This document shows, piece by piece, positions 410 to 10,798 of a DNA stretch of 57,906 nt. How positions within the stretch are numbered: position 1 is the first letter of the stretch; every line of letters begins with the position of its first letter. The notes under the pieces were generated by a model that saw nothing but the letters and a program-made list of their open reading frames with translations, made no database searches and was not told the DNA's origin. This stretch comes from an uncultured Verrucomicrobiales bacterium (GTDB lineage: Bacteria; Verrucomicrobiota; Verrucomicrobiia; Verrucomicrobiales; Akkermansiaceae), in contig CALDZJ010000016.1 of assembly GCA_937944055.1 (NCBI GenBank), positions 1 through 57,906 on the forward strand, in the 5' to 3' direction. The position numbers and the translations under genes were made by a program.

Positions 410-1465
410 CTAGGTGAGTCCTTGGCGGGAGAGGTCTTGGACGTCGATGAGGCCGACGCTTTGGCCTTCTGCGTTTAGGACGATGAGGTCATCTACCCGG
501 TGTTCACGGAGGGTTTTGATGACTTCGACGGCGAGGTCATTTTCTTGGATGGTGATGGGCTGGGTGGTCATGTGCGCGGTGACGGGGGAGTCGCCAATGT
601 GACGGTCCTTTTGGTAGCCACGGACGAAGTCGCCATGGGTGAAGATGCCGGCGAGGGAGTGATCTGGATGGGTGATGATGGCGGCACCTGCGCGAGCTTC
701 TAGCATTTGGAGGACGGCGGTCTGGACGCTGGCGCTGGTGGGGACTTTTGCTAAGGCGGAGCCGCTGCGCATGATGTCTCTGACGCGGGTGAGGAGGAAT
801 TTGCCAAGGCTGCCTCCGGGGTGGAGTTCGGCGAAGTCTTCGGCACGGAAGCCGCGTTTCTCAAGGAGAACCATGGCGAGGGCATCGCAGAGGCCGAGCA
901 TGTTGGTGGAGCTGGAGGTGGGGGCGAGTTGGAGTGGGCAGGCTTCTTCTTCGACGTGGGTGTCTAGGGTGAGGTCGCTATGTTTTGCGAGGGTGGAGGT
1001 GATGGCGCCGGTGATGGCGATGATTTTAGAGGCTCGTTTTTTGACGTGAGGGAGGAGGCTGATCATTTCAGCGGTTTCTCCTGAGTAGCTGAGGGCGATG
1101 ACGAGGTCACCGTTGGAGAGGACGCCGAGGTCTCCGTGGAGGGCGTTTAGGCAGCTGAGGTTTACGGCGGTGGCTCCGGTGCTGTTGAGGGTGGCGACGA
1201 ATTTATGCCCGATGCTTTCGGATTTTCCGACGCCGATGACGACGATTTTTCGGTCTTGGGCGAGGGTGTCTACGAGGGCCTGAATGGCGTTGGTAAATGT
1301 GCCGTCGAGTCTTTTGGCGAGTCTTTCCAATTGGGAGGCTTCAATGGCGAGGACGGCGCGTGCTTTTTCGATCAAATCCACGGGGGGAGCCTGCCTGAAG
1401 GGATGCGGTGGGTCAATCCAAGTAAGTCTGGTGATCTGGGCGAGGCGGTTTATTCTCTGGGGCAT
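410..1465 (-). CDS. kdsD: Arabinose-5-phosphate isomerase (KdsD/KpsF/GutQ family)
   Basis: Predicted cytoplasmic enzyme converting ribulose 5-phosphate to arabinose 5-phosphate, the first step towards Kdo for lipopolysaccharide. The N-terminal SIS sugar-isomerase domain (about residues 45-190) carries GVGKSESIGHKF, the SYSGET phosphosugar-binding motif and the ELHPGGSLGK segment that follows it in this family. Two CBS domains fill the C-terminal third (about 225-350). The 351 codons slightly exceed the usual 320-330, and homology begins only near residue 30 (DLIEKARAVL), so the first 25-30 codons may be untranslated; a GTG at residue 29 is one alternative. The ATG lies in a CATCGATG palindrome two bases from the divergent msbA start. 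Its place beside msbA and glycosyltransferases fits an LPS role. Confidence 0.92.
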   Translation of the reverse strand: MPQRINRLAQITRLTWIDPPHPFRQAPPVDLIEKARAVLAIEASQLERLAKRLDGTFTNAIQALVDTLAQDRKIVVIGVGKSESIGHKFVATLNSTGATAVNLSCLNALHGDLGVLSNGDLVIALSYSGETAEMISLLPHVKKRASKIIAITGAITSTLAKHSDLTLDTHVEEEACPLQLAPTSSSTNMLGLCDALAMVLLEKRGFRAEDFAELHPGGSLGKFLLTRVRDIMRSGSALAKVPTSASVQTAVLQMLEARAGAAIITHPDHSLAGIFTHGDFVRGYQKDRHIGDSPVTAHMTTQPITIQENDLAVEVIKTLREHRVDDLIVLNAEGQSVGLIDVQDLSRQGLT

Positions 1466-1467
1466 CG

Positions 1468-3210
1468 ATGAAGCGGTTTTGGCCTTATCTGAAATATTTT
1501 AAGCCGGTGAGGTGGCACTTTTTAGGGAGTGTCATTGCGGGTTTGTGCTATGCGGTGGCGACGGGTGCGGGCTTGCCTCTGGCGGCGAGGGTGGTGTTTC
1601 CGTTGATTTTTGAGGATGATCAGGCTGGGGGAGGGGGTGATGAGTCGAGCGTTTTTGTGGGTTTCTTGCGGGCTTGGTTAGAGGGTTTGCCGGAGGGTTG
1701 GGTTCTGGTGGCGGCGTGTGCTTGGTTGCCTTTGATGTTTTTGATCCGGGCGCTGGGGGGCTTTATTAATACTTATCTGATTAGTTATTGTGGCTTTCGT
1801 TTTCTGGAGCAGATCCGTGATGAGGTTTTTTCAAAGCTGCAATCTTTGCCGGTTGCGTTTTTTCATAAGCATCAATCGGGTGATCTTTTGGCGAGGTTGG
1901 TGGGGGATGCGGAGGTGGTGCGGGGGACGGTGAGTAAGGTGTCGGTGGATCTTATTAAGCAGCCGGCGACGCTGGTGGCGGCTTTGATTTTTCTTCTTTC
2001 GGAGGCGATGTCTAATGAGGGGACTTCTTTGGTGCTTTTTGCGATTATTTCTATTCCGGTTTGTGTGTTGCCGTTGCGGGCGATCGCGAAGAAGTTGGGG
2101 AGGAAGGCGAAGCGCTTGCAGGCGAATGCGGGTGATTTAAGTGGGCAGATATCGGAGTCGATCCAGGCTCCGATGGAGATCCGGGCGTATAATATGGAGG
2201 CGGAGGTGCTGGGGAGATTTCGTGAGCGGGTGCGGGGGATCGTGCGTTATTCGATGAAGGTGGTGAAGTATCGCCAGATGATTTCTCCGGTGGTGGAGTT
2301 CGTCTCGGTGGTGGGCTTAACGGTGGCGATTTATTTAGGGGCGGAGCAGGGGATGAAGCTTTCAAGTTTTATGGCGATCGCGATGGCTCTGTATTTGTGT
2401 TATGAGCCGGTGAAGAAGCTGGGGGCGATTCAGGGTCATTTGAAGCAGGCGGAAGTCTCGCTGGATCGTTTGGAGGAGATTTCTCTGGCGGTGGATGAGT
2501 TATCAGAGCCGGCTTCGCCGAAACGTCCGGATCGTTTTGTGAGTCGTGTTTGCTTGGAGGGGGTGGATTTTTCTTATGGGGAGGATCGGATTTTGGAGGG
2601 GATTGATCTGACGGTTGAGCCGGGGGAGTGTGTCGCTTTGATCGGGCCGAGTGGGGGTGGAAAGACGAGTCTTTTTAATCTGATTCCGAGATTTTATGAT
2701 ACGACTGCGGGTCAGGTCTCGGTGAGTGGAATCGATGTGCGGGATTGGAAGAAGAGTGAGTTGCGAGCGCGGGTGGCGCTGGTGGCGCAAACGGCGATTC
2801 TTTTTAAGGGGACGATCCGGGAGAATATTCTTTTGGGGCGCCCGGGGGCGAGTGAGGCGGAGGTTGAGGCGGCGGCGCGGCGAGCGAATGCGCATGATTT
2901 TATTTTGGAGCAGGAGAGGGGCTATGATACGGAGGTGTCAGAGCGGGGGGCGAGTCTCTCGGGCGGGCAGCGCCAGCGGATCGCGATTGCGCGGGCCTTT
3001 TTAAAGAATGCTCCAATCCTCCTTTTAGATGAGGCGACGAGTGCGCTGGATCAAGGAAGCGAGGCGATGATTCAGGAGTCGCTGAGGGAGCTTATTAAGG
3101 ATCGTACGACGATTTTGATCGCGCATCGCTTGAGTACGACGAAGATTGCGAGTCGGGTGATTGAGCTGGATCAGGGGAGGATTATTGCGGAGAGGGCCGA
3201 GGCGGAGTGA
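1468..3210 (+). CDS. msbA: Lipid A export ABC transporter, fused permease/ATPase (MsbA-like)
   Basis: Half-transporter of 580 residues with an N-terminal six-helix membrane domain (about 15-330) and a C-terminal nucleotide-binding domain (about 345-575). The NBD shows Walker A GPSGGGKTS near residue 392, the signature LSGGQRQR near 497, Walker B ILLLDEATSALD near 515 and the switch histidine in IAHRLST. This is the MsbA/LipA-exporter architecture, which as a homodimer flips lipid A-core or other lipids across the inner membrane. Substrate is inferred from the neighbouring LPS genes; a generic multidrug exporter of the same family cannot be ruled out from sequence alone. The gene is divergent from kdsD and its 3' end overlaps the convergent glycosyltransferase gene by 29 bp. 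Confidence 0.85.
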   Translation: MKRFWPYLKYFKPVRWHFLGSVIAGLCYAVATGAGLPLAARVVFPLIFEDDQAGGGGDESSVFVGFLRAWLEGLPEGWVLVAACAWLPLMFLIRALGGFINTYLISYCGFRFLEQIRDEVFSKLQSLPVAFFHKHQSGDLLARLVGDAEVVRGTVSKVSVDLIKQPATLVAALIFLLSEAMSNEGTSLVLFAIISIPVCVLPLRAIAKKLGRKAKRLQANAGDLSGQISESIQAPMEIRAYNMEAEVLGRFRERVRGIVRYSMKVVKYRQMISPVVEFVSVVGLTVAIYLGAEQGMKLSSFMAIAMALYLCYEPVKKLGAIQGHLKQAEVSLDRLEEISLAVDELSEPASPKRPDRFVSRVCLEGVDFSYGEDRILEGIDLTVEPGECVALIGPSGGGKTSLFNLIPRFYDTTAGQVSVSGIDVRDWKKSELRARVALVAQTAILFKGTIRENILLGRPGASEAEVEAAARRANAHDFILEQERGYDTEVSERGASLSGGQRQRIAIARAFLKNAPILLLDEATSALDQGSEAMIQESLRELIKDRTTILIAHRLSTTKIASRVIELDQGRIIAERAEAE

Positions 3211-4147
3211 GTGGATCTAGGTGCTGGAGGAGGCGTTTTTCAAAGGCGGCGGTGTTTTCTAGGGACCAAGCGCGGGCGGCTTGAGTTTGCTCTGTCCATT
3301 GCTGCGGGGGGGTGGCGATGATTTCTTCAATGATTCTCTCGAGCGAGGTGGGATGGATGAAGTAGTTGGTTCCTAGGTGGCGGGGTTCGCTTTTTTCGAT
3401 GTCGATGAGGAGGCCGCGGGCAGGGGTGATGAGTTCGTTCATCGGTGGTCCATCGCTGGTGATGACGAGGGCTCCGCAGGACATGGCCTCGACGATGTAG
3501 TGGCCCCATCCTTCTGAGCGAGAGGGGCAGAGGTGAATGGGGTGGGAGTTGTAGAGTTGTGCGATTTCTGCGTTGCTGAGGTAGTCACGGTGGAGCGTGA
3601 CATTAGCGGGGACGCTTTCTGGCGCGTTGTCCTTGGTTTGGACGAGGGTGAGGGTGGGCCACTCGGGGTGTTTTTCCCAGAGTTGGAGGATGGCTTCGGT
3701 GCCTTTGAGGGTGCTTTTCCCGGCAAGGTGGAGGAAGGTTTTCTGTTCGCGGGTGATCGCAGGGTTAAAGAGGTCCTCTGAGCTAAATCCGGTGAAGTGG
3801 CAGGCGGGGTGAAGTTGAGAAAAGATCTCGAGGGCGTGCTGGCTTTTGCAGAAGATGGCATCGAGGCGGGTGAGGTGGTGGAGATGCCGCTTGGGGAAGC
3901 GTTCTTGATTCGGGATGAGGATGTTTTTTTCAGCGGCTCCGAGCCAGCGGGGGAAGATGCGTTCTAGGAAGAGGTTGGCGCTGAAGTGCTTTTTTTGAGG
4001 GAGCCAGCGCCGGAGCGCGGAGATTCCTCTGCTATGGCTGAGGGTGACTTCATAGCCGGCGGCGCTGACGATTTCACGGATGATTGAGACATCACGATCA
4101 AGGCCGACGCCATTACTGCGGGCGATGATATTGAGGTGCTTAGGCAT
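3182..4147 (-). CDS. Glycosyltransferase, GT-B fold (group 1)
   Basis: A 321-residue glycosyltransferase with the C-terminal GT4-type signature SEGWGHYIVEAMSCGALVIT, an EX7E-like motif that contacts the nucleotide-sugar donor, followed by a donor-site GPPMNEL loop. The N-terminal acceptor half starts MPKHLNIIARSNGVGL. An upstream in-frame extension exists, but the ATG at 4147 is preferred because protein similarity begins there and it overlaps the stop of the upstream gene by 8 bases, suggesting translational coupling. It probably adds a sugar to the LPS core or a related glycolipid at the inner face of the membrane; donor and acceptor cannot be read from sequence. The 3' end overlaps the convergent msbA gene. 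Confidence 0.85.
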   Translation of the reverse strand: MPKHLNIIARSNGVGLDRDVSIIREIVSAAGYEVTLSHSRGISALRRWLPQKKHFSANLFLERIFPRWLGAAEKNILIPNQERFPKRHLHHLTRLDAIFCKSQHALEIFSQLHPACHFTGFSSEDLFNPAITREQKTFLHLAGKSTLKGTEAILQLWEKHPEWPTLTLVQTKDNAPESVPANVTLHRDYLSNAEIAQLYNSHPIHLCPSRSEGWGHYIVEAMSCGALVITSDGPPMNELITPARGLLIDIEKSEPRHLGTNYFIHPTSLERIIEEIIATPPQQWTEQTQAARAWSLENTAAFEKRLLQHLDPLTPPRPSPQ

Positions 4148-5276
4148 GAGGGTGGAGGGCTTCTCGGTAGTGGGAAATGGTTTGCTTGGCCATGATCCTT
4201 TTATGGAACTTGCTATCAATGAGGTGGTGGGCGTTTGTGGCAAGTTGTTTGGCGAGTTCGGGCTGGGCGATGAGTTTTAGGAGGGCGGTGCTGAGGGCGG
4301 CCTCATCTCCGATGGGTGCGAGGAGGCCGCTTTGGTGGTCTTCGATGAGTTCTGGAATGCCTCCGGCAGCGGTGGCGACGACGGGTTTTAGGCTGGCGAA
4401 GGCATCAAGAATGGAGCTGCCTAGGCCCTCTGACTGCGAGCTGGTGAAGAAGATATCGGCTTCCTGAAGGAGCTCGGGGATGTCTTGGCGGAAGCCTGCG
4501 AGGGTGACGTGATCATTTAGCTGGAGGGTTCGAATCTCGGCTTCGAGGGCTTGTTGAAGCGGGCCGGATCCGGCGATGAGGAAGTGGACGGGTGGTGACC
4601 CTGCGGGGAGTGTTTGGCAGACGCGCTTGGCTGTGCGGAGGAAGGTGAAGAGGTCTTTATCGTGGCTGAGGGCGGCGATGTTGAGGATGAGGCAGCTTTT
4701 CTTTGGGATCTGGAATGCTGCGCGAATTTCCCCGGAGCGGCTGATGTTTTTAAAGCGTTGTGGGTCGATCCCGTCATAGACGGTGACGATTTTTTCTGCT
4801 TGTTGGATCGCGGGGCGGAGGATCTGAGCTGCGGCATGGGAGACGCAGATGAAGCGCTTAATGGAGGTGTGATTATATTTCCAGGGTGTCGTGATTTTTT
4901 TCTTAACGGGGATGATGACCTTGCGGCTTACGATGAGGGGGGTGGGGTTCCCGAGGCTTGCTGAGATGATGGCGGCGTTTTGTGCGTGAGAGCTGTGGGC
5001 ATGAATGAGGGAGATTCCTTGTTCGCGGCATAATTTTTTGATGCTGAGTGCGGCTGGAAGGCCTGCGAGTTTTCTGAATGAGAGACTGGTGTGTGGAATG
5101 GAGTGGTGGAGGCAGTGGCTTTCAAAGGCGGAGTCTTTTTGGCAGGCGACATGGATTTGGAGGCCGAGCTTGAGTGATTCCTCGATGAGGTAGGCGATTT
5201 GTTGTTCACCGCCGCGCCAGCTTTTTTCAGCACTGAGGTGAAGGATTTTGGTGAGCTTTGCGGAGGGATGACTCAT
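4140..5276 (-). CDS. Glycosyltransferase, GT4 family (group 1)
   Basis: A 378-residue GT-B fold glycosyltransferase. The N-terminus has the glycine-rich acceptor loop SWRGGEQQIAYLIEE, and the C-terminal half has the GT4 donor motif SSQSEGLGSSILDAFASLKPVVAT followed by GGIPELI. It is the first gene of a two-gene unit with the next glycosyltransferase (8-base overlap). Both lie in the LPS block between msbA and the kinase-glycosidase fusion and are likely to act in core oligosaccharide assembly. The exact sugar is unknown. Confidence 0.88.
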   Translation of the reverse strand: MSHPSAKLTKILHLSAEKSWRGGEQQIAYLIEESLKLGLQIHVACQKDSAFESHCLHHSIPHTSLSFRKLAGLPAALSIKKLCREQGISLIHAHSSHAQNAAIISASLGNPTPLIVSRKVIIPVKKKITTPWKYNHTSIKRFICVSHAAAQILRPAIQQAEKIVTVYDGIDPQRFKNISRSGEIRAAFQIPKKSCLILNIAALSHDKDLFTFLRTAKRVCQTLPAGSPPVHFLIAGSGPLQQALEAEIRTLQLNDHVTLAGFRQDIPELLQEADIFFTSSQSEGLGSSILDAFASLKPVVATAAGGIPELIEDHQSGLLAPIGDEAALSTALLKLIAQPELAKQLATNAHHLIDSKFHKRIMAKQTISHYREALHPHA

Positions 5277-5375: not shown

Positions 5376-7589
5376 ATGGAATTGTCAATGTCTCCCTCTT
5401 CCGCCAGTTTACGCAGGAAAGTGAACGGCGGTAGGGAAGTTAAGATTGGAAAATTTAAGGGTGAGCTGTCTTCAGAATTTTGCGAGCGCTTTGAAGGGTG
5501 GTCTCCGGATGAATTGGCGGAGTTAATTGCGAGGGAGGAGGAGGGCTTGATCGCTGCGGGAAGACATCGGGTGGTGGTGTTGCCTTTTGAGTTGAGAGGG
5601 GGGGTGGTCCGTGTGGCTGTGAAGGCCTTTGGGAGGCAGGGGAGGTTAAAAGACCGCTATGATGCGCGGCGCGGGTCAAAGGCGGCGAGGTCATTTAGGG
5701 CGGCAGATTTTTTGACTCGTGGGGGAGCGGGAACGCCGACTCCGATTGGTTATCTGGAGCGCTGGGAGGGTGGAAGACTGGCGGAGAGTTATTATTTATC
5801 AGTGTATGTGGAGGGTCTTTTGTCTTTTAAGGATGAATTGGTGATGCTTTATCGGGAGGACCCGCGAACGGAGCGCTTGGTGAGCCTTTTGAGGCATGTT
5901 GCTGGGGCGATCCGAGCGATGCATGATGTGGGGTTTTGTCATCGTGATTTAGGGAATCAGAATATTGAACTGGAGCGTCCGCAAGCTGGGGAGATGTGGG
6001 GGCGGGTGTGCTTTATTGACCTGAACCGGGGGCGAATGAGGGAGGGTTTAAGCGCGGTGGAGCGAGCGAGGGATTTTGCGAGAATCCGGATCCCGGGGGC
6101 ATTTTTTGATGTGTTTGTCGTGCTCTATTGGGGGGGGAGTGCCCCTAAGAGTTTTCTGAAGAAGATGGGTAAGATGCGCAGGCGTTTTCGGCGCTGGGAG
6201 GCGACGCGGAAGTGGCGGCACCCTTTTCGTAAATCTCAGCAGGGGCCGGGCTTACGGGAGATGAAGGCAAAAGATATCTGGGTGTGGGATGAGAAGACGG
6301 CGCAGGCCTCAGTGATGCTGAACCGGATGGAGCGGCAGCAGGCGCATTCAAAATCGAAGTATCTGAGTTTGGCGAAATCTGTTCTGAGTTCCGGGGGGGC
6401 AGTGTGGCGGAACTATGGTGAGCTTTTGCCGCAGGCGTTTTCTAAGCGGGTTTCGTTGGCTGGAAAGATCGGGATGAGTTTGGAGATGGCTGATCTTGAT
6501 TTGGCCAAGCAGGTGGATTTTTTAGATGAGTTAGGAAAGATCCCAGTGTTGGTGCGTTTTTGTCATCATGAGGGGCGGGAGCAATGGGAGCGATCCTTGG
6601 AGGATTTGGCGAGAATCCATGCAAGGGGGCATGCTCTGCGGGTGGCGATTTTACAGGATCGCCGAGCGGTGCTGGAGCCTGATTCGTGGCGAGAGTTTCT
6701 GGAATGTGTTTTGCCGAACTGCGCGGAATTGGTGGAGGGTGTGGAGATTTGTCATGCGGTGAACCGCTCGAAGTGGGGAGTGCATTCGCCGGAGGAGCAG
6801 GCTCAGCTTTTGGAGCCGGTGGTGGATATTTTAAGGCGTTTTCCACAGGTGAAAGTCACGGGGCCAGCTTGTATCGATTTTGAGTATCACTTTGTCATTG
6901 CGGCTTTGGATAAAACTCCGAGGGGGCTGCGTTATGAGGCTCTCTCTCATCATCTTTATGTGGATCGCCGGGGTGCGCCGGAGAATAAGCAAGGGGTGTT
7001 TGGGGTGGTTGAGAAGTGCGCCTTATTGAGGGCGATCGCGAGGTATTCTCCTCATTGTGAGGAACGCGTGATCATTTCTGAGGTGAATTGGCCGGTGAAG
7101 GGAAGTGGGATTTATTCTCCGGTGGATGCGACTTTTATGTCGGCGGAGCAGCCGGAGAGTCAGCTCAATGTTTCGGAGAAAGATTACGGAAGTTTTATGC
7201 TCCGTTATCTCGTGTTGGCGCTTTGTTCAGGCTATGTGGATGAGGTTTATTGGTGGCGTCTCGTGGCCCATGGGTTCGGACTGGTTGATGAGCGGGCCGA
7301 AGGTGGCTGGCGGGCGCGGCCGGGTTTTGCGATGTTGAAATACTTCCTGGAGACGCTGGGGGACGCGACCTTTATTCAAAGGTTAGAGACTGAAGAGGAT
7401 GTCTATGCTTTGCGTTTTGAAGTCTCCGATGGTGAGCTTGTGATGGGGTGGGTGAATGGGGGGAGGGCGGCGCCAAGTTGGTCGCTGGAGGGAGCTCAGT
7501 GCTACGATGCTTTTGGGAACGAGCAGGAGGCTGGGGAGTTAAGCGATGAGCCTTCTTACTTTTTTTTCCCAAGATCGAGAAGGAGCTGA
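5376..7589 (+). CDS. Kinase (LPS/Kdo-kinase-like) fused to a TIM-barrel glycoside hydrolase-like domain
   Basis: A 737-residue two-part protein with no signal peptide. Part one (about 20-250) has a protein-kinase-like fold of the WaaP/InaA LPS-kinase group: VAVKAF with Lys83, the catalytic loop CHRDLGNQNI with Asp191 and Asn196, and FIDLNRG with metal-binding Asp215. Part two (about 360-737) resembles clan-A glycosidases: beta-4-like GVEICHAVNRSKWG with Glu457, SHHLYVDRRG, and ISEVNWPVKG with Glu569 as candidate nucleophile, then a small C-terminal domain. Linker 255-330 is basic. It is divergent from the glycosyltransferase pair. A purine-rich GAGGGGGA stretch may support either ATG at 5376 or 5388. 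Phosphorylation of an LPS-core sugar is likely by context; why a hydrolase is attached is unknown. The glycosidase assignment is weaker than the kinase one. Confidence 0.75.
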   Translation: MELSMSPSSASLRRKVNGGREVKIGKFKGELSSEFCERFEGWSPDELAELIAREEEGLIAAGRHRVVVLPFELRGGVVRVAVKAFGRQGRLKDRYDARRGSKAARSFRAADFLTRGGAGTPTPIGYLERWEGGRLAESYYLSVYVEGLLSFKDELVMLYREDPRTERLVSLLRHVAGAIRAMHDVGFCHRDLGNQNIELERPQAGEMWGRVCFIDLNRGRMREGLSAVERARDFARIRIPGAFFDVFVVLYWGGSAPKSFLKKMGKMRRRFRRWEATRKWRHPFRKSQQGPGLREMKAKDIWVWDEKTAQASVMLNRMERQQAHSKSKYLSLAKSVLSSGGAVWRNYGELLPQAFSKRVSLAGKIGMSLEMADLDLAKQVDFLDELGKIPVLVRFCHHEGREQWERSLEDLARIHARGHALRVAILQDRRAVLEPDSWREFLECVLPNCAELVEGVEICHAVNRSKWGVHSPEEQAQLLEPVVDILRRFPQVKVTGPACIDFEYHFVIAALDKTPRGLRYEALSHHLYVDRRGAPENKQGVFGVVEKCALLRAIARYSPHCEERVIISEVNWPVKGSGIYSPVDATFMSAEQPESQLNVSEKDYGSFMLRYLVLALCSGYVDEVYWWRLVAHGFGLVDERAEGGWRARPGFAMLKYFLETLGDATFIQRLETEEDVYALRFEVSDGELVMGWVNGGRAAPSWSLEGAQCYDAFGNEQEAGELSDEPSYFFFPRSRRS

Positions 7590-8194
7590 TCATCTGGAAA
7601 GTGAATCTCGGGGAATTTGTTTTTCAGGTAAGCGACGAAGCGGTTCCAGCGCCGGGCAATCTTAGCGTCAGCGAGGGGTCCGATGTAGTTTAGCAAAGGG
7701 ATCGCAACTTTATCTCCGATGCCATCGACAATCATGGCGGAGGGGGGCTGATTTTTAGTGACTCGGATGAGGATGTTTTTCACGTGGAGGTCACTGATGA
7801 TGATGCGATTTTGCAGCAGGTAGGTGGCGAGGCCGCGCAGTGCGGTAATGATTGCGCCCAGCATTTCTGGGTGTGCGTTGATGTAGTGGTCGAGGGTCTT
7901 TGAAACCGTTCCATCAGAATCCGTGATGCATTCATAAAGGTGGCCGGGGCCGAGGTCCGTCATGCAGGATCCGAGCATGTCAGAAACTTGGGCGAGGTTC
8001 TTTTTCTGAGCATGGAGTTTTTTGTAGTAGGAGACATCTGTGCTCAGGCGTTTTGCGGCTTTGGGATTAGAGGTGGCAATTTTGATGCAGAGGTCTGCCT
8101 GTTGGGGGTGGCGGTAGCAGTGCGCAAAGGCGCCGGAAGCGATATGCAGATTTTTTTCCTGCTCTTTGAGGAGGATGATGGATTGGCTCTGCAT
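7556..8194 (-). CDS. YrbL-like kinase-fold protein (PhoP-regulated YrbL family)
   Basis: A 212-residue protein whose pattern fits the YrbL-PhoP_reg family, a small kinase-like fold. IASGAFAHCYRHP resembles a glycine-rich loop, LCIKIA supplies the lysine, IISDLHVKNILI is the catalytic loop and AMIVDGIGD the metal-binding segment. The substrate of this family is not established. It is the last gene of a minus-strand run behind ugd and the LpxL-like gene and overlaps the convergent kinase-glycosidase fusion by 34 bp, so two unlike kinase-fold proteins sit tail to tail in the LPS block. A role in envelope modification is inference from location. Confidence 0.75.
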   Translation of the reverse strand: MQSQSIILLKEQEKNLHIASGAFAHCYRHPQQADLCIKIATSNPKAAKRLSTDVSYYKKLHAQKKNLAQVSDMLGSCMTDLGPGHLYECITDSDGTVSKTLDHYINAHPEMLGAIITALRGLATYLLQNRIIISDLHVKNILIRVTKNQPPSAMIVDGIGDKVAIPLLNYIGPLADAKIARRWNRFVAYLKNKFPEIHFPDDQLLLDLGKKK

Positions 8195-8251: not shown

Positions 8252-9610
8252 CTAGCTACGGCCGACTCCGTGGGTGATGAAGCCGATGTTTTTAAGGGCC
8301 TCTAGATCGAGGATATTACGGCCGTCGAAGACGAAGGCGGGCTTGAGCATTTTCTCGTAGATGCTCTTGTAGTTGAGGTCTTTAAACTCATCCCACTCGG
8401 TGAGGACGGCGAGAGCATGTGCGCTGTCGCAGGCTTCTTCGGCGGTCTGGGCGACGTGGACGAGGGGGTGGTTTTCTTGGATGCCGAGGTCAGCACAGAT
8501 TTGAGCTTTGGAGACTTTGGGGTCGTAGATGTGGACTTCTGCTTGTTCTTCGAGGAGGTCTTGGCAGATGGAGATGGCGGAGGATTCGCGGGTGTCGTTG
8601 GTGTCTTTTTTGAAGGCGAAACCGAGGATCGCGATTTTCTTTCCGGCAACGGTGTTGAAGAGGGTCTGGACGATGCGTTTGACGAAGCGGCTGCGCTGGT
8701 AGTCATTCATTTTGATGACCTGTTCCCAGTATTCGGCGACTTCTTTAAGGCCGTAGTGTTCGCAAAGGTAAACGAGATTATAGACGTCTTTTTGGAAGCA
8801 AGATCCCCCAAAGCCGATGGAGGATTTTAGGAACTTGGATCCGATCCGTGAGTCGGTCCCGATGGCTGCGGCGACTTCGTCGACATTTGCCTCAGTCGCT
8901 TCGCAGAGGGCTGAGATGGCGTTGATGGAGGAGATGCGCTGGGCGAGGAAGGCGTTGGCAGTGAGTTTAGAAAGCTCGGAGGACCAGACGTTGGTGGTGA
9001 GAATTTTTTCGCGCGGGACCCAGCGGGCATAGACCTCGACGAGGGTCTGGATGGCGGCCTGTCCTCCTGGTGTTTCAGCTCCTCCGATGAGGACGCGGTC
9101 AGGGGCGAGGAGGTCTTCAATCGCGGTTCCTTCAGCGAGGAACTCAGGGTTTGAGAGGACTTCAAAGTTCACATTTGAGGGGCAGTTATCAAGGATCGTG
9201 CGGATCGTTTCGGCGGTGCGAACTGGGAGGGTAGATTTCTCAACGACGATTTTATCAGAAGTGGAAACCTCGGCGATTTTTCGCGCACAGAGTTCGATGT
9301 ATTTCAGGTCGGAGGCTTTTCCTGCTCCGGTTCCGTAGGTCTTGGTGGGGGTGTTCACCGACATGAAGATGATGTCAGCTTCGGCGATGCTTTGGTCGAC
9401 CTCAGTGGTGAAAAAGAGGTTCCTTCCCCGGGCTGCGGTGACTAATTCGTCGAGGCCTTTTTCGTAGATTGGGAGGTTTTCGCTATTCCAAGCGGCGATG
9501 CGCTCCTCATTGATGTCGACCACGGTGACCTGAATATCCGGGCACTTGTGGGCGATCATAGACATAGTGGGTCCTCCAACATAGCCGGCTCCGATGCAGC
9601 AAATTTTCAT
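8252..9610 (-). CDS. ugd: UDP-glucose 6-dehydrogenase, animal-type
   Basis: NAD-dependent four-electron oxidation of UDP-glucose to UDP-glucuronate. The N-terminal Rossmann motif is [11 protein letters not shown] (residues 4-14), [14 protein letters not shown] marks the substrate pocket, and [10 protein letters not shown] near residue 270 holds the catalytic cysteine. The length of 452 residues and phrases such as [24 protein letters not shown] and [20 protein letters not shown] match the animal UGDH type rather than the shorter E. coli type. The product can feed glucuronate, galacturonate, xylose or aminoarabinose into surface glycans. The gene sits between the LpxL-like acyltransferase (25-bp gap) and the YrbL-like kinase on the same strand, probably one operon. 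Confidence 0.95.
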
Positions 9611-9634: not shown

Positions 9635-10798
9635 TTAGGGGGCGGCGGAAACTGACAGGATTTGTGTTTTTAGCGAGAGCTTTTTAAGCCTAGCTGAGTG
9701 CTCTGGTGGACAGATATAGACGTCAGGGGCAACGGGGCCGCGCTGCTTGATCTCATCTAAAGCTTGCGTGAGGGTGGCGTCATCCAGCGAGAAATCGAGC
9801 GTGGCATTTTCTTGCGTGATGATGGATGCAGGGTGGGGGAGCGCGCCCGCTCCACCTACGAGGTTCACGAGTCTGAGCGGACGGGTGACGCCGCTATGCT
9901 CCGTATATTTATCGAGAAATTTAAGAGGATCTTTTCCTTGGATACGCCAGCGATCCTCAAACCAAAAGACATCAGCCGGGGAATGTCGCCATGCTTCTTC
10001 GAGGCTATTAGCACAAGCTTGAGCGGAAATTTCTGTGATTGGGGTGAAGCTGACTTTCCATTGGCAGGGGGATGTTGTTTCACAGATGAGTCGCATCAGC
10101 TGGGCCTTTGCGCGTTTCGCAATGAGATGAGGAAGCGGTGAGAGGGTGGTGGGGCGGCCGAAGAAGGTCCCTGCGATTCCGCGGCTTCCTACTCGCTGGT
10201 CCGCTAAGATTCCCATGCCGCCGCCGTCTCTGACAAAGCTGATGAGTCGATGTGTGGAGGCGTGTTTTGGGAAAAGTTGGAGCCCTCTTCTGGTGCGCCG
10301 ATGCTCGACGATCTCATTGATGAGAGAGTTGTTTAGCGGGCGGTAGTGAGTTCCTACCGCCATTTTTTCTTTGGTTAGGAAAACCGCTTGCGCAAGGATT
10401 TCCCAATTTCCCATGTGCGGTGAGACGAGGACGATCCCGCCTTTTTCTGCCTCGATGAGTAGATCATCCAGCCCCTCAAAGCTGAGGTGTTTTAAAATTT
10501 CTTCATCGTTCAGAAAGGGGGTTCGCAAGGAGCACAAAAGATTGGCCCCGCAGCGCTCGAAGACCTCTCGGCTGAGGTTGTAAATTTCTTGAGCCGTCTT
10601 CTCGTCTCCGAAAGCGTAGGTGATATTACGGATCACCTGATCCCTGCGTTTCTTAAGCAGATGGTGCGCAATCCTCCCGATAAACTCACCGACCTTGTAA
10701 CTCGTCTCCAGCGACATCAGCGCCAAGACTCCTTCGAAGGATCGGTATAAGACGAACTGGAGCCGATGGCTGATCGTGGGGGACGAGGTGCGATTCAT
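9635..10798 (-). CDS. Lipid A biosynthesis acyltransferase (LpxL/HtrB-like) with C-terminal extension
   Basis: Membrane-associated late acyltransferase of lipid A assembly. The catalytic HX4E motif is VSPHMGNWEIL near residue 130, and ADQRVG plus GTFFGRPTTLSPLP are the conserved acceptor-side blocks of the LpxL/LpxM family. The family is usually about 290-310 residues; here about 85 more follow residue 300, starting at VTRPLRLVNLVGG, with no recognised domain. It is the first gene of the minus-strand run with ugd and the YrbL-like kinase, and is divergent from dnaK. Whether it transfers laurate, myristate or another chain cannot be told. Confidence 0.85.
   Translation of the reverse strand: MNRTSSPTISHRLQFVLYRSFEGVLALMSLETSYKVGEFIGRIAHHLLKKRRDQVIRNITYAFGDEKTAQEIYNLSREVFERCGANLLCSLRTPFLNDEEILKHLSFEGLDDLLIEAEKGGIVLVSPHMGNWEILAQAVFLTKEKMAVGTHYRPLNNSLINEIVEHRRTRRGLQLFPKHASTHRLISFVRDGGGMGILADQRVGSRGIAGTFFGRPTTLSPLPHLIAKRAKAQLMRLICETTSPCQWKVSFTPITEISAQACANSLEEAWRHSPADVFWFEDRWRIQGKDPLKFLDKYTEHSGVTRPLRLVNLVGGAGALPHPASIITQENATLDFSLDDATLTQALDEIKQRGPVAPDVYICPPEHSARLKKLSLKTQILSVSAAP

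Follow-up and report, generated by a model that had tools for sequence, protein, structure and literature searches.

A putative lipopolysaccharide-core sugar kinase fused to a candidate pseudo-glycosidase barrel in an uncultured Verrucomicrobiales bacterium

In a stretch of 57,906 nucleotides from an uncultured Verrucomicrobiales bacterium of the family Akkermansiaceae (contig CALDZJ010000016.1; the whole stretch is called the window), a single uninterrupted open reading frame (ORF) of 737 codons, lying exactly at positions 5376 to 7589 of the forward strand, encodes a fusion protein (P0001, 737 aa) that joins a lipopolysaccharide (LPS) kinase-type domain to a predicted glycosidase-type barrel. 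Based on motifs, alignments of relatives and predicted structures, we give an even chance to the proposal that P0001 is an LPS-core sugar kinase with a pseudo-glycosidase barrel that holds the acceptor. In this mechanism, the cytoplasmic WaaP-type domain would bind ATP and phosphorylate a hydroxyl group of an inner-core sugar, as its family and motifs suggest. The barrel may have descended from a glycosidase of glycoside hydrolase (GH) clan GH-A in which the acid/base glutamate was lost, and its old active-site cleft could hold an anionic core oligosaccharide or a lipid A-core acceptor near the kinase. Binding rather than cutting would explain why the acid/base residue is absent from every aligned member, why the nucleophile is lost in fusions of the reversed order and why a charged cleft signature stays constant.

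Reading frame and kinase domain

A pattern search of public genome contigs gave 65 loci, of which 46 together with P0001 make up the 47 members of alignments A4 and A5; the 19 loci left out were near-duplicates from the genus, truncated or N-containing frames, or frames with long extra N-termini. Alignments A2 and A3 hold 12 of 15 sequences. Four ARRANGEMENTS of kinase and barrel occur, namely the kinase-barrel fusion (forward), an overlapping gene pair, a stand-alone barrel and a barrel-kinase fusion (reversed), and counts over 47 refer to the forward members.

The kinase catalytic set that an earlier note, made from the sequence alone, had read in this frame is present as Lys83 (in VAVKAF), H189-R-D191-LGNQ-N196 and FID215LN. 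Lys83 is kept in 46/47 members, with Arg in L083; Asp191, Asn196 and Asp215 are each kept in 46/47, and all four residues occur together in 45 of the 47. The domain matches PF06293 over residues 102-237 (E 5e-10; 39.6 bits against a cut-off of 21.3), as do all 47 members at E 1e-3, and this model provides an independent check because the family's kinase profile was built from A4, whose members match it by construction. The whole-protein model also bears out the WaaP-like kinase proposed in that note, since its top match among solved structures in Foldseek is WaaP (6dfl; E 8e-12), followed by GH30 xylanases. In P. aeruginosa WaaP (PMC6147952), the residues corresponding to Lys83, Asp191 and Asp215 are K51, the HRD Asp and D188. 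The NCBIfam equivalog models PRK15123 (WaaP; 29.2 bits against a cut-off of 170) and PRK01723 (Kdo kinase; 25.8 against 142) stayed far below their cut-offs, which supports the name "PF06293 kinase" but not "WaaP" or "KdkA". The N-terminal domain probably places phosphate on outer-membrane sugars. In the genome assembly of the window, which is 92% complete, the fusion is the only PF06293 match, and six other genomes carry 2 to 13 matches each. A further locus, L173 (2034-4139), has one open frame in which the kinase motifs and the barrel signature both look degenerate.

The AlphaFold2 model of whole P0001, built with 47 aligned sequences, has a mean predicted local distance difference test (pLDDT) score of 91.6 and a predicted template modelling (pTM) score of 0.91, the latter predicting a fixed relative position of kinase and barrel. 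Residues 1-17 fall below pLDDT 50; a GTG codon at 5421 fits the N-termini of relatives as well as the ATG at 5376 does, and the true start may be this GTG, where the relatives' N-termini begin. In L055, L065 and L080, approximately 400-550 extra residues precede the kinase (frames of 1178-1258 aa), which may represent a further domain or a misplaced start. Between kinase and barrel, the basic linker described in the earlier note was recovered as 14 Lys or Arg residues within residues 256-290, and W304 and D305 of the connector (Table 1) occur in 47/47 members. The hydropathy profile of P0001 contains no transmembrane or signal stretch (best 19-residue mean 1.29). A sequence search of the PDB with full-length P0001 gave weak kinase matches only (28 sequences, best E 0.011). 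A plasmid or phage origin was rejected, as neither collection held a match to the fusion at E 1e-5.

Fold, catalytic positions and cleft of the barrel

Residues 340-737 modelled alone gave a mean pLDDT of 93.7 and a pTM of 0.93, and the predicted structure is an eight-stranded barrel followed by a beta-sandwich, the latter with 0 invariant residues across the 47 members. In Foldseek, the first 14 rows for this half are GH30 xylanases (E 1e-12 to 5e-9), with a template modelling (TM) score of about 0.6, a root mean square deviation of about 6 Å and 10-12% identity; one of the GH30 entries, 1nof, is titled family 5 and has since been moved to GH30. Glucocerebrosidase, galactanases and GH5, GH1 and GH51 enzymes follow, and alpha-amylase-type and other barrels appear from about rank 31. 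From these fold matches, the second half is a barrel of the clan GH-A type, as the earlier note had suspected, and carries a beta-sandwich, although the sequence-profile links are weak. Scans of Pfam and NCBIfam gave no model for the second half of P0001, and profile-profile comparison reached GH39 at a probability of 23% (E 9e-4) and GH30 at 2% (E 0.025), so that membership of either family was not found for this barrel. Among the barrels of the 47 members, 13 Pfam families each match one or two members (best E 0.0029) and one NCBIfam model matches a single member (E 0.058), and these stray matches were taken as chance rather than as a known family. The barrel profile found four matches in the PDB, all at E 0.88 or worse. 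The barrel is a family outside the Pfam and NCBIfam releases scanned.

Strand 7 spans residues 565-569 in the model of residues 340-737 or 565-570 in the whole-protein model, which places Glu569 in the nucleophile position of clan GH-A. This half of the catalytic pair named in the earlier note stands, while its acid/base candidate, Glu457, was rejected, and of the acidic residues expected at the ends of strands 4 and 7, only that of strand 7 remains. Glu457 lies inside strand 4 (455-460 in the model of residues 340-737, or 453-458 with a bridge at 460 in the whole-protein model), and residue 461 lies outside the strand in both models. Three canonical enzymes that the barrel profile picked up in the second half of the barrel, all at E 8e-5 or lower, read LEIWNEYN, YEVWNEPH and WQIWNEPN at strand 4; canonical enzymes have [FYL]E[IV]WNE where P0001 has VEICHA. 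In the alignment with the three, Glu457 falls opposite their Glu or Gln at the third position ahead of the Asn in the Asn-Glu pair, and Ala461 opposite the acid/base Glu. This slot holds Glu in 3/3 canonical controls and is occupied by Ala (43/47) or Val (4/47) in forward fusions, by Gly or Ala in 5/5 stand-alone barrels and by Thr in 7/7 reversed barrels. Four of the stand-alone barrels read FQIGNASNR or YWIGNAVNR, keeping the Asn with Ala in place of Glu, and at the position of Glu457 all five have Gln or Trp. In the seven reversed barrels, including L169, the strand-4 pair is Ser-Thr and the position of Glu569 does not hold Glu.

The strand-4 register rests on MAFFT alignments with the three canonical enzymes, on the strand ends of the models and on the reads of the stand-alone barrels. 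A profile scan run without gaps or constraints failed to select the Asn-Glu column of either GH39 or GH30; in hhalign, strand 4 was shifted in the GH39 alignment so that a gap faced the canonical Glu, and the part aligned with GH30 lay outside strand 4. In neither procedure was Glu457 aligned with the canonical Glu.

Of the 28 barrel positions that are invariant across the 47 members, 22 lie on the cleft side, defined from the strand ends of the whole-protein model as 106 of the 306 barrel residues (hypergeometric 8e-7, with neighbouring positions not independent of one another). W438, N463, R464, W467, D501, F502, E503, R531, P535, K547, W572 and G635 are found in 47/47 forward, 7/7 reversed and 5/5 stand-alone barrels. 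Q427, D501, F502, E503 and R531 were matched in 0/3 canonical glycosidases, although some of these cells are gaps, and among the canonical rows L171 aligns badly at strand 7 and L232 is gapped at strands 2-3. The reversed barrels keep the signature N463-R464-x-[KR]-W467, D501-F-E503, R531 and K547. Loss of the nucleophile from the reversed fusions, together with kinase residues kept in 6/6 of them, indicates that the arrangements share cleft residues rather than glycosidase catalysis. As judged from the alignments, the cleft is a charged site that is conserved and particular to this family, with a common core from which the glycosidase pair is absent.

These residues also bear on a trimming glycosidase with a relocated acid, in which E503, D501 or His460 would act as acid/base and Glu569 as nucleophile, an explanation that we consider improbable. 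All three candidates are invariant in 47/47 members, and D501 and E503 also occur in 12/12 stand-alone and reversed barrels, but their persistence in reversed barrels that lack the nucleophile points to binding. Furthermore, H460 is found in 0/12 of the reversed and stand-alone barrels, and there is little obvious reason for a hydrolase to share the cytosol with the product on which it would act. With the acid/base Glu absent, trimming of a sugar, as the earlier note had suggested, is unlikely in the classical sense, and the carbohydrate-binding guide that it offered as another option is the better of the two.

Distribution, domain arrangements and gene neighbourhood

The related-genome search covered 58 genomes, of which 27 (including that of the window) belong to the same genus, 9 are others of the family and 22 others of the order. 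Near-full-length copies occur in 15 of the 27, the other 14 being 51-71% identical to P0001, and two further matches, in G009 (interrupted by the end of a contig) and in G003 (decayed), bring the total to 17/27. The decayed copy (L175, G003:C81, approximately 65254-66204) retains kinase and barrel remnants with the middle mostly missing. In L012 (G023), barrel strands 4-5 match L011 of another genome of the genus nearly letter for letter, in a stretch that adjoins a short deletion and represents either gene conversion or an assembly chimera. Beyond the genus, the 9 remaining family members yielded only a kinase-only relative (in G029), and the 22 other genomes of the order gave 0 matches to the fusion. 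Both domains lie in one frame in 63 of the 65 public loci, the exceptions being L037, whose ORF begins within the barrel, and L058, at a contig end. Verrucomicrobiota, Lentisphaerota and Kiritimatiellota supply most of the 65, and a few come from Pseudomonadota; a single locus carries the label Planctomycetota and another Thermoanaerobaculales (Acidobacteriota), both being on contigs of metagenome-assembled genomes. The recurrence in 15/27 genus genomes and in 63/65 loci over several phyla rules out a recent accidental fusion as well as the sequencing or assembly join that the earlier note had named as a possible artefact, and we assign next to no probability to either.

Matches to the barrel profile turned up in 41 of 240 genomes of the phylum, and the 30 strongest all lie in frames with the kinase. 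The weaker 11 include the split form (G273), five reversed fusions (two of them broken), a degenerate copy (G153) and a canonical glycosidase (G202). In the split form, from the same class (loci L166 and L231), two overlapping genes in the same direction encode the kinase and then the barrel; the kinase gene matches the fusion-family kinase profile at E 3e-43, and the pair is adjoined by a gene that, on our own reading, encodes an MsbA-like ABC transporter. The reversed fusions L167, L168 and L172 have PF06293 matches within residues 547-707 (E 3e-10, 1.5e-4 and 1.5e-4, respectively), and three more (L227, L228 and L230) belong to Saccharospirillum's class. Full-length reversed copies occur in 3/230 genomes of the phylum. 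All six reversed fusions retain the Lys, Asp, Asn and Asp of the kinase; the kinase half of L169 is cut short. Genes within 6 kb of L230 look like hldE and waaP, and the waaP-like gene matches the fusion-family kinase profile. In the class of Saccharospirillum, the barrel profile was found in 10/274 genomes, comprising 2 forward, 4 stand-alone, 3 reversed and 1 canonical glycosidase. The stand-alone barrels from these four genomes have approximately 350-390 residues. L229 (4278-5912), one of the 2 forward cases, has its barrel in a 545-aa frame with the kinase mostly missing.

Distances within the kinase half and the barrel half are correlated (Pearson 0.87, Spearman 0.66; 1081 pairs from 47 sequences), as would be seen if the two fused halves had been passed on together. 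In the kinase tree, which samples 24 of the 47 forward members, 23/24 lie on one side of a branch with support of 92/86 (below the tool's star), the outlier being L085 on a long branch, and forward and reversed pairings form separate groups with long branches between them. Two Saccharospirillum sequences fall within a starred Verrucomicrobiota group, and this nesting suggests horizontal transfer into a cultured genus, which includes S. impatiens, a non-pathogenic organism isolated from a saline lake. Loci of Saccharospirillum and Natronospirillum that carry the fusion are L061, L066, L071 and L079.

In the window, LPS genes lie beside the fusion gene (Table 1). We take the SIS and CBS domain protein to be KdsD/GutQ-like and the ATP-binding cassette (ABC) transporter to be MsbA-like. 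The last 34 bases of the YrbL-like kinase gene overlap the end of the fusion gene.

Table 1. Features of the fusion gene and its neighbours in the window
Feature	Positions	Strand	Basis
SIS+CBS protein	410..1465	-	PF01380, PF00571
ABC transporter	1468..3210	+	PF00664, PF00005
Glycosyltransferase, GT4 type	3182..4243	-	PF00534
Glycosyltransferase, GT4 type	4140..5276	-	PF00534, PF13439
Whole fusion gene, 737 aa (GTG 5421 possible start)	5376..7589	+	ORF, homologues
WaaP/Kdo-family kinase domain, about residues 55-285	5538..6230	+	PF06293, Foldseek 6dfl
Lys83, putative ATP lysine	5622..5624	+	Alignment; role from WaaP K51 (PMC6147952)
HRDLGNQN catalytic loop	5940..5963	+	Motif, alignment
FIDLN, DFG-like metal-binding motif	6012..6026	+	Motif, alignment
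Conserved connector RHPFR...DIWVWD..AQA, residues 281-311	6216..6308	+	Alignment
Predicted (beta/alpha)8 barrel, clan GH-A type, residues 356-661	6441..7358	+	AlphaFold2, Foldseek
Strand 4 and acid/base slot, GVEICH-A461	6738..6758	+	Models, alignment with canonical enzymes
D501-F502-E503 after strand 5	6876..6884	+	Alignments of forward, reversed and stand-alone barrels
Glu569, nucleophile slot, end of strand 7	7080..7082	+	Models, alignments
Predicted C-terminal beta-sandwich, about residues 662-732	7359..7571	+	AlphaFold2
YrbL-like kinase, convergent with the fusion gene	7556..8194	-	PF10707
UDP-glucose dehydrogenase-like protein	8252..9610	-	PF03721/PF00984/PF03720
Lipid A acyltransferase, LpxL-like	9635..10798	-	PF03279

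Neighbours were sought with the window proteins and one LptF/G-like query (E 1e-10, flanks of up to 8 kb) at 18 genus loci and 47 distant loci. Homologues of MsbA were found at 13/18 genus and 4/47 distant loci (three of Saccharospirillum and L084), of LpxL at 13/18 and 0/47, of the KdsD-like protein at 8/18 and 1/47 (L076), of YrbL at 9/18 and 0/47, of Ugd at 4/18 and 0/47, and of LptF/G at 0/18 and 4/47 (L053, L057, L061 and L071). Hence the order of the two domains beside LPS genes, which the earlier note had proposed to survey, is seen in the window and in some relatives; MsbA, LptF/G or KdsD-like homologues are present at 7/47 distant loci. A scan of 120 of 156 distant-locus neighbour ORFs (36 overlapping, very long or short ones were left out) gave LptF_LptG and glycosyltransferase family GT4 as the commonest, with 6 each, followed by GT2 (4), GH2 (3), O-antigen ligase (2) and LpxL (1). 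The dual-specificity phosphatase family PTP-NADK accounts for 3/120 of the ORFs neighbouring the fusion (L038-L085 loci). BLAST clustering of neighbours added little beyond the genus.

The lack of the LPS homologues sought at 40/47 distant loci would favour another target, such as a capsule, an exopolysaccharide, a lipid-linked sugar or a protein, with the LPS setting of the window being incidental. The genes near the stand-alone barrels, which appear to be thiG and trmB (L223, L224) or rpiA and thyA (L225, L226), do not look like LPS genes to us and count on the same side. On the other hand, PF06293 is matched by 47/47 members and msbA, lptFG, lpxL or kdsD-like neighbours occur in more than one phylum, and a non-LPS target is given a distinctly small chance.

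Weighing of the proposed function and relation to known systems

Several observations weigh against an LPS-core kinase with an acceptor-holding barrel. First, at 40/47 distant loci, many of them on short contigs, no MsbA, LptF/G, LpxL or KdsD-like homologue was found in the flanks at E 1e-10. Second, in an alignment with a single canonical WaaP row, the position of the WaaP alphaC Glu (E78) is Ser, Ala or Thr in 47/47 members; it is also Ser or Ala in two aligned stand-alone kinases. Third, L054 (5102-7117) has lost Asp191, Asn196 and Asp215 (the last replaced by Asn) with the barrel signature intact, and is a possible pseudokinase-pseudoglycosidase. Furthermore, the kinase gene of the split pair is below the PF06293 cut-off (E 0.018), the hydropathy mean exceeds 1.6 in 6/47 relatives, and no kinase match was found in the 9-13 kb covered around the stand-alone barrels of the four genomes of the Saccharospirillum class, so that the barrel can occur without a neighbouring kinase. 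Finally, Glu569 is invariant in 47/47 forward and 5/5 stand-alone barrels, which is a stronger constraint than a mere binding platform needs.

This strict conservation is the feature least explained by binding, and it keeps alive a catalytic barrel acting on activated donors. In that alternative, which we regard as rather unlikely, the barrel would be a working transferase or hydrolase without an acid/base residue, with Glu569 as nucleophile and a donor with a good leaving group (a nucleotide sugar, a sugar phosphate or a lipid-phosphate sugar), so that the core would be both phosphorylated and glycosylated. N571 and W572 are as invariant as Glu569 in the forward and stand-alone barrels, and retaining glycosidases engineered to have an inert residue at the acid/base position work with activated donors and strong nucleophiles (PMC7519651). 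Against this, E569 is found in 0/7 reversed barrels, where the rest of the signature is kept. Nor is a donor-binding motif known to us for barrels of this type. A very improbable extension is that the barrel is a natural "glycoligase" that attaches a sugar from an activated donor to the core phosphate placed by the kinase, giving a glycosyl-phosphate (phosphodiester) decoration; if so, the recurrence of kinase and barrel as fused or adjacent units would reflect two steps of one reaction sequence.

Returning to the acceptor-holding barrel, the nearest known system on the kinase side is WaaP (RfaP), the heptose I kinase (6dfl), which shares with P0001 a common fold, the ATP lysine and the HRD and D188-type motifs (PMC6147952). 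The absence of a membrane segment and the LPS-locus context are further likenesses. The fusion differs in the replaced alphaC Glu, in its barrel half of 380 residues and in the conserved connector, WaaP being, as we understand it, a kinase without such a barrel. On the barrel side, the nearest are retaining glycosidases of clan GH-A (the GH30 enzymes XynC and Xyn30D by fold, GH39 by a weak profile match), which have in common with it the (beta/alpha)8 barrel with a beta-sandwich, the Glu at the end of strand 7 and the motif positions on strands 4-8. Unlike these enzymes, to which it is 10-12% identical, the barrel lacks the acid/base Glu in every aligned member, bears a signature of its own and is tied to a kinase, in a protein (P0001) without a secretion signal.

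Two further systems offer analogies. The Klotho proteins are GH1 pseudoglycosidases that pair with fibroblast growth factor (FGF) receptor kinases and, in outline, likewise combine a clan GH-A barrel lacking a catalytic Glu with a recognition role beside a kinase; they are eukaryotic and extracellular, belong to GH1 and serve a receptor kinase, and are thus an analogy rather than a relative (PMC10628560). Thioglycoligases are engineered acid/base mutants of retaining glycosidases that resemble the barrel in retaining the nucleophile while an inert residue fills the acid/base slot (PMC7519651). They are man-made, whereas the lost acid/base of the fusion barrel is natural and family-wide.

No description of an LPS kinase paired with a glycosidase-type barrel was found among the papers listed by searches of an open-licence collection, from which most subscription journals are absent, and to our knowledge LPS-core kinases are known only without such a partner domain. 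Acceptor recognition by these kinases is poorly understood, and a kinase joined in either order to a disarmed barrel would give a handle on it and would be a bacterial parallel to pseudoglycosidases as recognition modules. If the barrel is instead catalytic despite lacking the acid/base residue, it would represent a natural counterpart of an enzyme type made by engineering. The fusion occurs in a cultured host, Saccharospirillum impatiens, where the barrel family could be tested.

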